A DNA stretch of 64,000 nucleotides from Asticcacaulis solisilvae. Lineage in GTDB: Bacteria > Pseudomonadota > Alphaproteobacteria > Caulobacterales > Caulobacteraceae. Shown one piece after another: positions 50,628-58,781 of this stretch (position 1 is its first letter; each line of letters starts with the position of its first letter). Under the pieces are notes generated by a model. The model ran no database searches. It had not been told where the DNA came from and saw only the letters and a program-made list of their open reading frames with translations. The translations under genes were made by a program, and so were the position numbers. The DNA lies in assembly GCF_017875235.1 (NCBI RefSeq), contig NZ_JAGGMI010000001.1, forward strand, positions 248,001 through 312,000, in the 5' to 3' direction.

Positions 50628-50630
<3 letters not shown>
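50426..50630. repeat. Second inverted pair of GGGGAGGGGGACC-type repeats
   Basis: Left copy about 50426-50491 and right copy about 50549-50630, inverted. Each carries CTCCCCAAATC/GATTTGGGGAG-type outer stems, GGTCCCCCTCCCC, and a GAGGCCCC end. Inner hairpins differ (CGCCCC/GGGGCG in one, a longer GCACGAGTGAGCGAAGC in the other). The right copy's GGGGCCTCTTA gives the TAA stop (50628-50630) of the kinase gene. Same family as 12399-12590. Confidence 0.85.
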
Positions 50631-52706
<2,076 letters not shown>

Positions 52707-52732
52707 AAAATTATTCTGTTCCAATGGGCGAC

Positions 52733-52818: not shown

Positions 52819-52891
52819 AGTGTCCTTTTGATTCTGAAATTCGCCTGAGGCCGATATCAAATGCGCGCGAATTTCAGAATCAGGACACTAG
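52819..52891. repeat. Second long hairpin repeat, inverted relative to the first
   Basis: Arms AGTGTCC / GGACACT and TTGATTCTGAAATTCGC / GCGAATTTCAGAATCA pair. Its loop, read on the other strand, is ATTTGATATCGGCCTC, nearly that of the hairpin at 52733-52810. Stem sequences differ but remain complementary. The terminal CTAG supplies the TAG stop (52888-52890) of the giant kinase. Confidence 0.85.
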
Positions 52892-55800
52892 CGATGCAGC
52901 CAGGCGCGCAGGACCTTGATCATCTGCTCGGAATCCACGGGCTTGGACAGATAATCCCATGCCCCCGCCTCGATGCACTTCTCACGGTCGCCCTTCATGG
53001 CTTTGGCGGTCACGGCGACGATGGGAAGGTTCTTGAGGCGCGACACCTTGCGGATTTCCTGAATGGTTTCCATGCCATCCATTTCGGGCATCATGATGTC
53101 CATCAGCACGATATCAACGTCCGGATCCTCCATCAGGATGTTGATGGCGTCGCGGCCGTTGTCGGCCGACAGGATGTCCATCTCGTGCTCTTCCAGCACG
53201 CTGGTCAGAGCGAAGATGTTGCGGGCGTCGTCATCGACAATCAGTACCTTCTTGCCGACCAGCAGCTTGTTCGACTCGTGCAGGTCGCTGAGCGTCGCCT
53301 GCGCCTCGCCGGGCAGGCTGTCGACACGGCGGTGCAGGTGCAGGGTCAGCACATCGAGCAGGCGGTCGGTCGACTGTACGGTCGATACCGGATAGAGCGC
53401 CGACAGCCGCTTGAGCGCGCTTTCGTCCACACCTGGATCGCCGAACAGGATGACCGGCATGCGGCCGGTAATCGTATCCGCCGCCTCGCCCTGCTCCAGC
53501 AGGTCGGTGACGACCTCGGGGGCTGCCCCCGACAACAGGATACTGTCCACCGGGCTCTTGCGCATGCGCTTCAGGGCCGCCGCGCCATTGGCGACCGGCA
53601 GGACCTCGATGCCGTCCATCTTCAGCGGCTGGACGATCTGGTCGCGGCGCGTAGCGTCGGGTTCGACGACGATGACGCTGCGCGACCGCCGGTTGATATA
53701 GCCCTTCAGCGACTGCATCAGCTGATCAACCAGTTCGTGGTTCTGGATCGGCTTGGCGACGAAGGTCAGCGCCCCGGACGTCAGGGCCCGGTCGCGCGAT
53801 TCGTCCGTCGAGATGATGCAGATGGGGATGTGGCGGGTGGCCATGTCGGCCTTGAGCCGTTCCATGACGCGCCAGCCCTGCATGTCCGGCAGGTGGATAT
53901 CGAGCAGGATGCAATCGGGCGAATGATCGTGCGTCATGGCCAGCGCCGAGGCGCCCAGCGACGTCACCAGCCCCTTGAAGCCGCGCGCGCGCGCCGCATC
54001 GAGCAGGAAGCGGGCAAAGCCCAGGTCGTTCTCGACGATCAGCATGACGGAATCGCCCGGCTGGATGAAGGCCCGGTCGTCGCCGACCTCGTTCACCGCC
54101 GCCGGCTCGTCGGCCGTGATGGCGGCCAGATCCGTCTCCGGCATCGGCATCTTGGCCACCGCCGGCACATCCAGGCGCATCATGGCCTCGGACAGGCCCT
54201 TGCGCGGCCGCTGGGCATAGACCGCCGGCAGGTAGAGCACAAAGGTCGAGCCACGGCCCGGCACCGATTGCAGCTTGATTTCGCCGCCCAGGAGACGCGC
54301 CAGTTCGCGCGAGATGGCGAGACCGAGGCCCGTGCCGCCATACTTGCGCGAGGTCGAGCCGTCGGCCTGCTGGAAGGCTTCGAAGATGATCATCTGCTTG
54401 TCGGCGGCAATGCCGATGCCGGTGTCGGTGACCGAGAAGGCCAGGACTTCCGGCGCGCGGTTCAGATCCTCGTTGTCGTAGGACCAGCCGTTGATGACCG
54501 GCTCGACCGACAGGGTGACCTTGCCGTGATGGGTGAACTTGAACGCGTTGGACAGCAGGTTCTTGATGATCTGCTGCAGACGCTTGGCGTCGGTATGGAT
54601 CGACTTCGGCAGGCGCTGGTCGAACCCGACCTGGAAGTCGATATTCTTGCTTTCCGCCATGTGGTTGAAGGTACGCTTGACGTAGCCATTGAGGTCGTCG
54701 AGGCGCAGTTCGCCCGATTCCACCACCACGGTACCCGACTCGATCTTCGACAGGTCGAGGATGTCGTTGATGAGCATCAGAAGATCAGTGCCGGACGCAT
54801 GGATGGTCTTGGCCGAATCCGTCTGCTTGGGCGTCAGGTTGCCCTCGGGGTTCTTGGTCAATTGGTCCGACAGGATGAGCAGCGAGTTCAGCGGCGTGCG
54901 CAGTTCGTGCGACATGTTGGCCAGGAATTCCGACTTGTACTTCGACGTCAAAGCCAGCTGCTTGGCCTTGTCTTCCAGTTCCTGGCGCGCCTGTTCGACT
55001 TCGGAGTTCTTGCGTTCGACCTCGTGGTTCTGCTGGGCCAGAAGGCGGGCTTTTTCCTGAAGCGCCTCGTTGGTCTGCTGCAGTTCTTCCTGGCGGGTCT
55101 GGAGCTGTTGCGCCAGGGACTGCGACTGGGTCAGCAGGTCTTCGGTCCGCATGTTGGCGTCGATGGTGTTCAGAACGATACCAATGGATTCGGTCAACTG
55201 ATCGAGCAGCGCCTGGTGCGACGGGTTGAAGCCTTCGAACGAGGCCAGTTCGAGCACACCCTTGGCCTCACCTTCGAAGATCAGCGGCAGGACCATGACG
55301 GCGCGCGCCGGCGCCGACCCTAACCCCGACGAGATCTCGACCATGTAGTCGCCCGGCAGGTCGTTGAGCAGGAACTTGCGCTTTTCGACGGCGCATTGCC
55401 CCAGCACGCCCTCACCCAGCTCGATCTGCTTGCCGAGGTCATTGGTGCCCTTGGAGGCAAAGCTGGCCAGCAGGGTCAGCTTGGAATTTTGGCCACGCTT
55501 GTCCATGACGTAGAATTCGGCCTGCTGGGCGCCGACCACCGGACAGAGTTCCGACAGCACCATGCGCCCGACGTTCGTCAGGTCGCGCTGGCCCTGAAGC
55601 ATGCGCGAGAATTTGGCGAGGTTGGTCTTCAGCCAGTCCTGTTCGGTATTCTTCTGCGTCGTGTCGCGCAGGTTCCTGATCATCTCGTTGATATTGTCCT
55701 TCAGGACGGCGACTTCGCCCTGGGCATCGACGGTGATCGAGCGCGTCAGGTCGCCCTTGGTCACGGCCGTGGCCACGTCGGCGATGGCGCGCACCTGGGT

Positions 55801-58623
55801 CGTCAGGTTGGCCGCCAGCTGGTTCACGTTCTCGGTCAGGCCCTTCCACGTGCCCGACGCACCCGGCACCTTGGCCTGGCCGCCCAACTGGCCTTCGACG
55901 CCGACTTCGCGCGCCACGGTCGTCACCTGGTCGGCGAAGGTGGCGAGGGTATCAATCATCGAGTTGATGGTGTCGGCCAGTTCGGCGATTTCGCCCTTGG
56001 CTTCCACGGTCAGCTTCCGCTTCAGTTCGCCGTTGGCGACCGAGGTCACGACCTTGGCGATGCCACGCACCTGGCTGGTCAGGTTGTCGGCCATCATGTT
56101 CACCGAGTCGGTCAGGTCCTTCCACGTCCCCGACACGCCCTCGACCTTGGCCTGGCCACCCAGCTTGCCTTCGGTACCCACTTCGCGCGCCACCCGCGTC
56201 ACTTCCGACGCGAATGAACGAAGTTGGTCCACCATGGTGTTGACGGTGTTCTTCAGTTCGAGGATCTCGCCCTTCACGTCTACGGTGATCTTTTTGGACA
56301 GGTCACCCGCGGCCACGGCCTTGGTGACGTCGGCGATGTTACGCACCTGACCCGTCAGGTTACCGGCCATCGAGTTCACCGAGTCGGTCAGGTCCTTCCA
56401 TGTACCGGCGACACCCTGCACGTCGGCCTGGCCGCCCAGCTTGCCTTCGGTGCCGACTTCGCGCGCCACCCGCGTCACTTCCGACGCAAACGACGACAGC
56501 TGATCGACCATGGTGTTGATGGTGTCTTTCAGCTCAAGAATTTCGCCCTTCACGTCGACGGTAATCTTGCGCTTCAGCTCGCCATTGGCGATGGCGGTCG
56601 TCACGTCGGCGATATTCCGCACCTGGGCCGTCAGGTTCGACGCCATCGAGTTCACCGAGTCGGTCAGGTCCTTCCAGGTGCCGCTAACGCCTTCCACCTT
56701 GGCCTGGCCGCCCAGCTTGCCTTCGGTACCCACTTCCCGCGCCACCCGCGTCACTTCCGACGCGAAGGCGTTCAGCTGGTCCACCATGGCGTTGATGGTG
56801 TCTTTCAGTTCAAGGATTTCGCCCTTCACGTCCACAGTGATTTTCTTGGACAGGTCACCCGCGGCCACGGCCTTGGTCACGTCGGCGATGTTACGTACCT
56901 GGCCAGTGAGGTTGCCGGCCATCATGTTCACCGAGTCAGTCAGGTCCTTCCACGTGCCGGCGACGCCCTTCACCTCGGCCTGACCGCCCAGCTTGCCTTC
57001 GGTACCCACTTCCCGCGCCACCCGCGTCACTTCCGACGCAAACGACGACAGCTGGTCCACCATGGTGTTGACGGTGTTTTTCAGTTCGAGAATTTCGCCC
57101 TTCACGTCCACGGTGATCTTCTTGGACAAGTCACCTGCCGCCACGGCCTTGGTAACGTCAGCGATGTTACGCACCTGCCCCGTCAGGTTACCGGCCATCG
57201 AGTTCACCGAGTCGGTCAGGTCCTTCCACGTACCGGCGACGCCCTTCACCTCGGCCTGGCCGCCCAGCTTGCCTTCGGTACCCACTTCCCGCGCCACCCG
57301 CGTAACTTCGGCGGCGAACGAGTTGAGCTGGTCCACCATGGCGTTGACCGTGTCCTTCAGCTCAAGGATTTCGCCCTTGACGTCCACGGTAATCTTTTTC
57401 GACAGGTCGCCATTGGCCACCGCGGTCGTCACGTCGGCGATGTTCCGCACCTGGCCCGTCAGGTTACCGGCCATCATGTTCACCGAGTCGGTCAGGTCCT
57501 TCCACGTTCCGGCCACGCCGCGCACCTCGGCCTGGCCACCCAGCTTGCCTTCGGTACCCACTTCGCGCGCCACCCGCGTCACTTCGGCGGCGAACGAGTT
57601 GAGCTGGTCCACCATGGCGTTGACCGTGTCCTTCAGCTCAAGGATTTCGCCTTTAACGTCGACGGTAATCTTGCGCGACAGGTCGCCGTTTGCCACGGCC
57701 GTCGTCACCTGGGCGATGTTCCGCACCTGTGAGGTCAGGTTACCGGCCATCGAGTTAACGGAATCCGTCAAATCCTTCCACGTCCCGGACACGCCTTCCA
57801 CCTTGGCCTGGCCGCCCAGCTTGCCTTCGGTGCCGACTTCGCGCGCCACCCGCGTCACTTCCGAGGCGAACGACCGGAGCTGGTCCACCATGGTGTTGAT
57901 GGTGTTCTTCAGCTCGAGGATTTCGCCCTTAACATCGACGGTGATCTTTTTCGACAGGTCGCCATTGGCCACGGCGGTCGTCACTTCGGCGATGTTCCGC
58001 ACCTGGCTGGTCAGGTTACCGGCCATCGAGTTCACCGAGTCGGTCAGGTCCTTCCACGTCCCCGACACGCCTTCCACCTTGGCCTGGCCACCCAGCTTGC
58101 CTTCGGTACCCACTTCCCGCGCCACCCGCGTCACTTCGGCGGCGAACGAACCCAGCTGATCCACCATGGTGTTGATCGTCTTGGCGGTACGCAGGAATTC
58201 ACCCTGCAGCGGCCGGTCGTCGATCTTCAGCGCCATGGTCTTCGACAGGTCGCCCTGGGCCACCGCGCCGATGACGCGCGCGGTTTCGGTCGTTGGATGC
58301 ACCAGGTCGTCGATCAGGTCGTTCACCGACTCAACCGAGTCCTGCCAGAAGCCGGACACATGGCCAAGATTGAGCCGCTGGCTGAGCCGGCCTTCCTTAC
58401 CAACGGACTTGGACAGACGCCCCAGTTCCGACGCCATGCGCTCGTTCATCTCGACGACTTCGTTGAAGGCGTCGGCGACCTTGCCGGCGATACCGGTCCA
58501 GTCGGCCGGCAGGCGGACATCGGACTGGCCCTTGCGCAGGGCGTTCAAAGCGTGGAGGAGTGCGTTGAGTTCGCCTCCTGCACTGACGGGCTCATCAGCA
58601 ACCTCGAAGGCGGCATCCAACAT
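52888..58623 (-). CDS. Giant poly-HAMP hybrid histidine kinase (Nik1/Os1-like layout)
   Basis: About 1911 residues, no membrane segments. From about residue 148 to 974 are nine repeats of exactly 92 residues ([18 protein letters not shown], then [19 protein letters not shown], then [13 protein letters not shown]), HAMP-type, after one degenerate N-terminal copy. Next: a GAF domain (about 1020-1165), a Gln/Glu-rich coiled coil, HisKA ([15 protein letters not shown], about 1239), an ATPase domain, a receiver ([14 protein letters not shown]), a receiver-like region lacking the phospho-Asp ([11 protein letters not shown]) and a final receiver ([13 protein letters not shown]). Fungal group III osmosensors share the 92-residue HAMP repeats. 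The ATG at 58623 ([12 protein letters not shown]) is used; a TTG at 58716 would add 31 residues, and neither has a strong ribosome site. Confidence 0.93.
55695..58180 (-). repeat. Nine tandem 276-bp repeats inside the poly-HAMP kinase gene
   Basis: The plus-strand landmark GGCCTGG..CCCAGC recurs at 55873, 56149, 56425, 56701, 56977, 57253, 57529, 57805 and 58081, each exactly 276 bases apart, with no insertion or deletion. Units differ by scattered substitutions, and the 55873 copy is the most diverged. This is coding, so reading frame and unit length are kept. Confidence 0.95.
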
Positions 58624-58781
58624 GTGTTTTGCTCTGAAAAAACTCTGGCCCCGGCTCACCCCGCCGTACCCTTCAGGAATGTGCCCGACCCGATAAAAGG
58701 GCGATGAGGTTTTCAAAGAGAAAAATAAGGAACCCGTAAGGGGGCTAACCAGCGGTTAAATGCCACGACCGTATTTAAAGA

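Follow-up and report, generated by a model that had tools for sequence, protein, structure and literature searches.

We analysed a 64,000-nucleotide stretch of the Asticcacaulis solisilvae genome (contig NZ_JAGGMI010000001.1, positions 248,001 to 312,000), hereafter the window. Its minus strand carries a gene (52888-58623, 1911 aa from its likely ATG) whose product is very probably a cytosolic member of the bacterial group III-like hybrid histidine kinases, the poly-HAMP repeat array of which would serve as a signal-transmitting rod of HAMP pairs. Comparison with relatives revealed that the length of the repeat unit, 92 residues, is fixed almost without exception, and that the number of units changes between species by whole units. 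The gene belongs to a known kind of kinase, and its main interest is comparative rather than local.

The Repeat Array

The landmark VT(R/T)VAREVG was found nine times in the protein, and all eight spacings between its occurrences were exactly 92 residues. It marks nine HAMP-pair units without indel (55651-58134, minus strand, residues 195-1022; residue numbers are counted throughout from the TTG at 58716). Tandem Repeats Finder delimited the array at 55747-58176, with a period of 276, 8.8 copies, 82% matches and 0% indels, and a score of 2786 for a default reporting threshold of 50. These data confirm the nine units of 276 bases, free of indels, that a previous sequence-only reading of the window had proposed. 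The same reading described the repeats as exact and their classes as alternating. Exactness holds only for the spacing, since pairwise identity of the nine units ranges from 57 to 97% in protein and from 66 to 91% in DNA, and the classes do not strictly alternate: AKVEGVSG is present in units 1, 2, 6 and 8, AEVRGVAG in unit 3, AEVKGVAG in units 4 and 5, ADVQGVAG in unit 7 and AKVPGASG in unit 9, and TTAVANGDL occurs in units 1-3 and TKAVAAGDL in units 4, 5 and 7. With a profile built from the nine units, a tenth was detected on their 5' side, which is divergent and 97 residues long (58135-58425, minus strand, residues 98-194), at 56.6 bits versus 147.5-175.9 bits for the others. This first unit is included in all unit counts given below.

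Over the whole protein, Pfam returned HAMP at 321 bits (9 stretches) and HAMP_2 at 308 bits (10 stretches), together with totals above the cut-offs for SpoIIID (49.8 bits) and HTH_6 (32.7 bits). The latter could mean that the repeats are DNA-binding elements, counterparts of the SpoIIID-like and HTH_6 partial matches of the myxobacterial kinases AskA and AskB; according to PMC7643160, AskB binds DNA in vitro and AskA does so in a pull-down. We consider this reading improbable, as no single SpoIIID or HTH_6 stretch passes, the same array yields the HAMP scores above, and searches of solved structures, whether by sequence or by fold, gave HAMP proteins as the best relatives. Lacking a passing stretch, SpoIIID and HTH were rejected as real domains.

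Unit Length and Unit Number among Relatives

Among 108 open reading frames (ORFs) from 101 loci, the distance from one 92-type unit to the next was 92 residues in 638 of 639 cases (the exception being 112, in L107), in a set of loci that are not independent, near-identical strains being among them and all having been picked by similarity. ORFs containing N were excluded from this count, for example that of L083 with one spacing of 82. The first spacing was 97 in 71 of 72 cases and 98 in the remaining one.

The number of units was determined in 53 complete arrays, 8 from a search of the family (the window's own included) and 45 from a genome collection; a 54th, L027, was dropped, as a contig end cuts its first unit. 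Arrays of 10 units (15 cases) and 12 units (12) were the most frequent, followed by 7 (8), 8 (5) and 9 (5), and more rarely 5 (4), 14 (2), 13 (1) and 3 (1). Also, L108, the start of which is cut off, has at least 15, so that the number runs between species from 3 to 15 or more. A tree built from the GAF-kinase regions of the 53 proteins requires at least 26 changes in copy number (least possible, 8), versus an average of 33.2 with shuffled labels, which indicates that copy number is also clustered on the tree. In the five pairs of arrays that we tabulated, the first unit and the last two correspond, and it is the number of interior units that differs. An exception is L072, whose first unit is one residue out of register and has no match in these tables.

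Several relatives suggest how such changes arise. Units 4-9 of Albitalea L053 are the outcome of a recent duplication of a three-unit block, the pairs 4/7, 5/8 and 6/9 sharing 98, 100 and 96% DNA identity. Related species differ as well, with 12 and 7 units in Variovorax and 14 in Albitalea versus 12 in Rhizobacter. Within Burkholderiales, the tree repeatedly has 12 and 7 units, which are five apart, on neighbouring branches (L055, L063, L064, L066, L068, L070, L072, L087, L099 and L103). In the 12-unit forms L055, L057, L064, L068 and L070, units 4 and 9 (88-96% nucleotide identity) are among the five closest pairs, and recombination between them could delete five units.

The number is ten throughout the clade of the window's gene (L017, L047, L048 and L076), although in comparisons with L048 and L076 some of the inner units no longer correspond by position. 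In Asticcacaulis sp. AC460 the ten units are the same, each best-matching at its own position. Over 828 codons, the comparison with AC460 gave 11 amino-acid versus 208 synonymous changes, and identity at four-fold sites was 0.71 in the array and 0.70 in the kinase domain. The position-wise match together with the many synonymous differences indicates that the duplications predate the split from AC460. We observed no sign of recent homogenisation of the units; an ongoing one was rejected given unit pairs of at most 91% nucleotide identity and the unit-for-unit match to AC460, and decay of the gene given the ratio of changes. Twelve units, 99-100% identical by position, were counted on each of six Rhizobium plasmids, of which five are from the R. 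leguminosarum group (R. leguminosarum, four; R. ruizarguesonis, one) and the sixth is from R. bangladeshense. R. beringeri TP37 (L131) was left out of this set, its gene being in two unannotated ORFs of 446 and 1263 aa. Thus, the expansion by recombination put forward in the sequence-only reading is upheld as whole-unit change between species and not as recent variation of the window's gene, and the repeat count that it proposed to compare in homologs differs between species and is constant on the six plasmids.

These observations bear on the idea of a contingency locus, in which copy number would often vary within species by recombination between units and so tune signalling. The differences between related species, the number of changes on the tree and the near-identical units of some relatives (units 5 and 8 of L053) are in its favour. 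Nevertheless, the closest pair of units in the window's gene is only 91% identical, the nearest relative keeps the same ten units by position despite many synonymous differences, and the six plasmids all keep twelve, which makes such a locus quite unlikely. As for an assembly artefact, by collapse or expansion of repeats, the assembly is in 34 contigs and an N run lies inside the array of the relative L028, but no two units are less than 9% apart in DNA and an independent genome shows the same ten in order, so that we give this explanation hardly any credit.

In the literature searched, in which subscription journals are thinly covered, we found no account of copy-number evolution in poly-HAMP kinases, no prior description of a fixed unit length with a labile unit number across phyla, and nothing on point for transfer between bacteria and fungi.

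Distribution of the Array

The sequence-only reading considered such arrays rare in bacteria at this copy number. This is not supported, as 30 of the 53 complete arrays, from several phyla, have ten units or more, and at least 537 of 590 candidate stretches in the genome collection encode relatives; bacterial cases are also in print. The genome loci studied here are the best 80 of these 537, ranked by similarity to the last unit and the GAF region, and their hosts belong to Alpha-, Beta- and Gammaproteobacteria, Planctomycetota, Verrucomicrobiota, Myxococcota, Cyanobacteria and others. A relative from Sorangium cellulosum (L077), included in the tree, has 8 units. Plasmids gave 189 matching records; the match spans 80% or more of the query in 153, and 114 are from Rhizobium. 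Of the 189, 12 were fetched.

Sixty genomes drawn from the family were searched at a protein match threshold of E 1e-50. Matches were found in 32, limited to the kinase part in 19, and the array is present in 13, counting the window's own. Nine of the 13 span the array (L017-L025, one with an in-frame TAG), one is a two-unit short form (L038), and in three the array is interrupted at a contig end or by an N run (L026-L028). At E 1e-50, no array was found in any of the four remaining genomes of the genus. The kinase region is 88% identical to the Asticcacaulis copy and the gene is 54-58% identical to seven copies from other genomes of its own family (a comparison made without L021, L024, L025 and L027). 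In the tree, seven family copies form a separate clade. The divergence of these family copies reflects either a different paralogue or a transfer. The single in-frame TAG splits the gene of L024, and this copy and the two-ORF gene of L131 are likely broken.

Gene Start and Domain Organisation

The ORF extends over 52888-58716 on the minus strand (1942 aa counted from TTG) in a 5.0 Mb prokaryote genome. The TTG at 58716 is probably not the true start. The ATG at 58623 (residue 32) seems likelier, because resemblance to the nearest relative, judged by eye, begins there; against it, the BLAST alignment to this relative runs, with gaps, up to residue 3. The highest 19-residue Kyte-Doolittle mean was 1.33, and no membrane span is present, so the protein is predicted to be soluble and cytosolic. 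On the plus strand, two antisense ORFs lie over the gene (52861-55323, 820 aa; 56224-57732, 502 aa) and are probably a by-product of G+C-rich codon use.

The order of domains is poly-HAMP, GAF, HisKA, ATPase, receiver, receiver without Asp, and receiver, all on the minus strand; Pfam thus confirms the HAMP-type units, HisKA, ATPase and receivers of the sequence-only reading, and hydropathy its lack of a membrane span. Before the repeats, an N-terminal HAMP-like segment (58426-58572, residues 49-97) was modelled as a helix-loop-helix, with a block predicted local distance difference test (pLDDT) score of 90-94. It lies within the part matched by PDB 9trk (residues 49-328) and 9trj (residues 49-237) in a sequence search of solved structures. 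In a single-chain model of the repeats, pLDDT was below 50 for nearly all residues from model residue 150 on, and no claim of a rod is therefore based on the model. Foldseek returned zero matches at E 0.001 or better, and 9trk and 9trj were not among the best 50 of its 83 matches.

After the array comes a GAF domain (55171-55587, residues 1044-1182; Pfam GAF_2, E 3.7e-16). The linker between GAF and HisKA (54937-55170, residues 1183-1260), with weak ATG17_like and GrpE matches and no passing stretch, is probably a coiled coil. Pfam identified HisKA (54733-54936, residues 1261-1328), where His 1270, in SHELRTP, is the likely phospho-acceptor, and HATPase_c (54223-54591, residues 1376-1498). The three-receiver region was modelled as three receiver folds with a mean pLDDT of 88. 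Receiver 1 (53692-54048, residues 1557-1675) has Asp 1606, which is invariant across 27 aligned sequences; of the two Response_reg stretches that Pfam found in the protein, we assumed the second to be this receiver. Receiver 2 (53338-53682, residues 1679-1793) has a receiver-like fold in the model and no phospho-acceptor Asp. This residue is retained in the alignment by several Verrucomicrobia and one cyanobacterial relative, and the middle receiver has lost it. Receiver 3 (52894-53250, residues 1823-1941), with Asp 1873, was recognised by Pfam, by alignment and in the model.

Neighbouring Genes

The adjacent downstream gene (50628-52724, minus strand, 698 residues) encodes a REC-(GAF)-HisKA-HATPase-REC hybrid kinase according to Pfam, the GAF match being below cut-off. 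This kinase is a likely partner of the poly-HAMP kinase. Of 73 testable genome loci, 55 have one of its relatives beside the poly-HAMP gene, 3 of the 55 matching over the first receiver only, and 7 further loci have too little downstream sequence. The test may undercount, an annotated response regulator beside the L128 kinase having been missed, and it may count other hybrid kinases. On the six Rhizobium plasmids (L132-L136 and L138), the poly-HAMP gene and its response-regulator partner are followed by treZ, with a ParE/ParD pair before treZ in four, and glgB lies upstream in L132. The proximity of treZ, involved in trehalose synthesis, possibly hints at an osmotic or desiccation role. The genes upstream in the window (symporter, kelch, GH3) give no clear functional hint. 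Four HPt matches were found in the genome, three of them over cut-off. Elsewhere in it, a hybrid kinase (G000:C17:13428-15617) is 42% identical to residues 1205-1942, and a frame on the same contig (G000:C17:24010-26085) has HAMP and HPt matches.

Comparison with Known Kinases

Fungal group III kinases have, to our knowledge, neither a GAF domain nor further receivers, in contrast to the present protein. Nik1, Bos1 and TcsC share with it N-terminal HAMP pairs, HisKA, ATPase, a receiver and the lack of a membrane span (PMC3848655, PMC3418262, PMC11253588). The resemblance in layout noted by the sequence-only reading extends to the repeat of CaNik1p (Candida Nik1), described as a 92-residue HAMP pair (PMC3848655). 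Fungi have five to six repeats in these accounts versus ten here (PMC3848655, PMC3418262). Their output is the HOG pathway, whereas the gene studied here is prokaryotic, with Asticcacaulis as nearest named relative, and the likeness, taken from descriptions, is one of layout.

Among bacteria, AskA, AskB and Amb07 of myxobacteria are presented as group III-like kinases whose poly-HAMP regions are extended; they resemble the protein in having many HAMPs, a histidine kinase, receivers and no transmembrane region, as well as partial SpoIIID-like matches over the HAMP region and, for AskA and AskB, HTH_6 (PMC7643160). A role in ambruticin sensing and DNA binding are features reported there for them and not for the present protein, and the comparison is by description (PMC7643160). 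Likewise, OsaA of Streptomyces coelicolor (SCO5748) is an 1829 aa hybrid kinase with more than 10 HAMPs and no transmembrane helix; it is described with a single REC and tied to osmoadaptation together with OsaB, this comparison too being by description (PMC9739842). HAMPs in the N-terminal half, no transmembrane region, a histidine kinase and receivers are features common to all of them and the protein in the window. Since these bacterial cases and the CaNik1p HAMP pair are in print, this kind of kinase is already known. As for solved structures, 9trk and 9trj ('histidine kinase, Gcn4p') represent the N-terminal poly-HAMP segment of a close relative, with a match limited to the start of the array, and the poly-HAMP of Aer2 (3lnr) has a comparable concatenated soluble HAMP fold, although Aer2 is a chemoreceptor with three HAMPs and 15% identity over the aligned part.

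Proposed Working and Significance

We propose that the 92 residues correspond to two HAMP bundles and that the array forms a long, presumably dimeric, signal-transmitting rod. With two bundles per unit, gain or loss of a whole unit would alter the length of the rod, with helical phase and signal sign left as they were. Input, possibly from stress or osmotic conditions, would enter through the N-terminal region, the GAF domain or the length of the rod, and would set how kinase activity at His 1270 is balanced against phosphatase activity. The receivers (Asp 1606 and Asp 1873) would then take up the phosphate, and its next destination is probably the adjacent hybrid kinase or an HPt protein from another part of the genome.

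More tentatively, and with clearly less confidence than in the kinase assignment, such proteins may be seen as "digital rods". The length of 92 residues would be frozen because helical phase must be kept and HAMPs must come in even numbers, and the array would vary in whole pairs through block duplication and deletion. Copy number might then set gain or threshold without inversion, the first and last two units being fixed input and output adaptors.

These results place the gene in a widespread, little-studied class of soluble sensor kinases. In length and type, the repeat unit of this class matches that of the fungal kinases linked with phenylpyrrole and dicarboximide fungicides. A spacing of 92 kept almost without exception in arrays of such different sizes offers an experimental handle on how a signal passes through stacked HAMPs, and natural proteins with differing rod lengths and similar ends allow the comparison.
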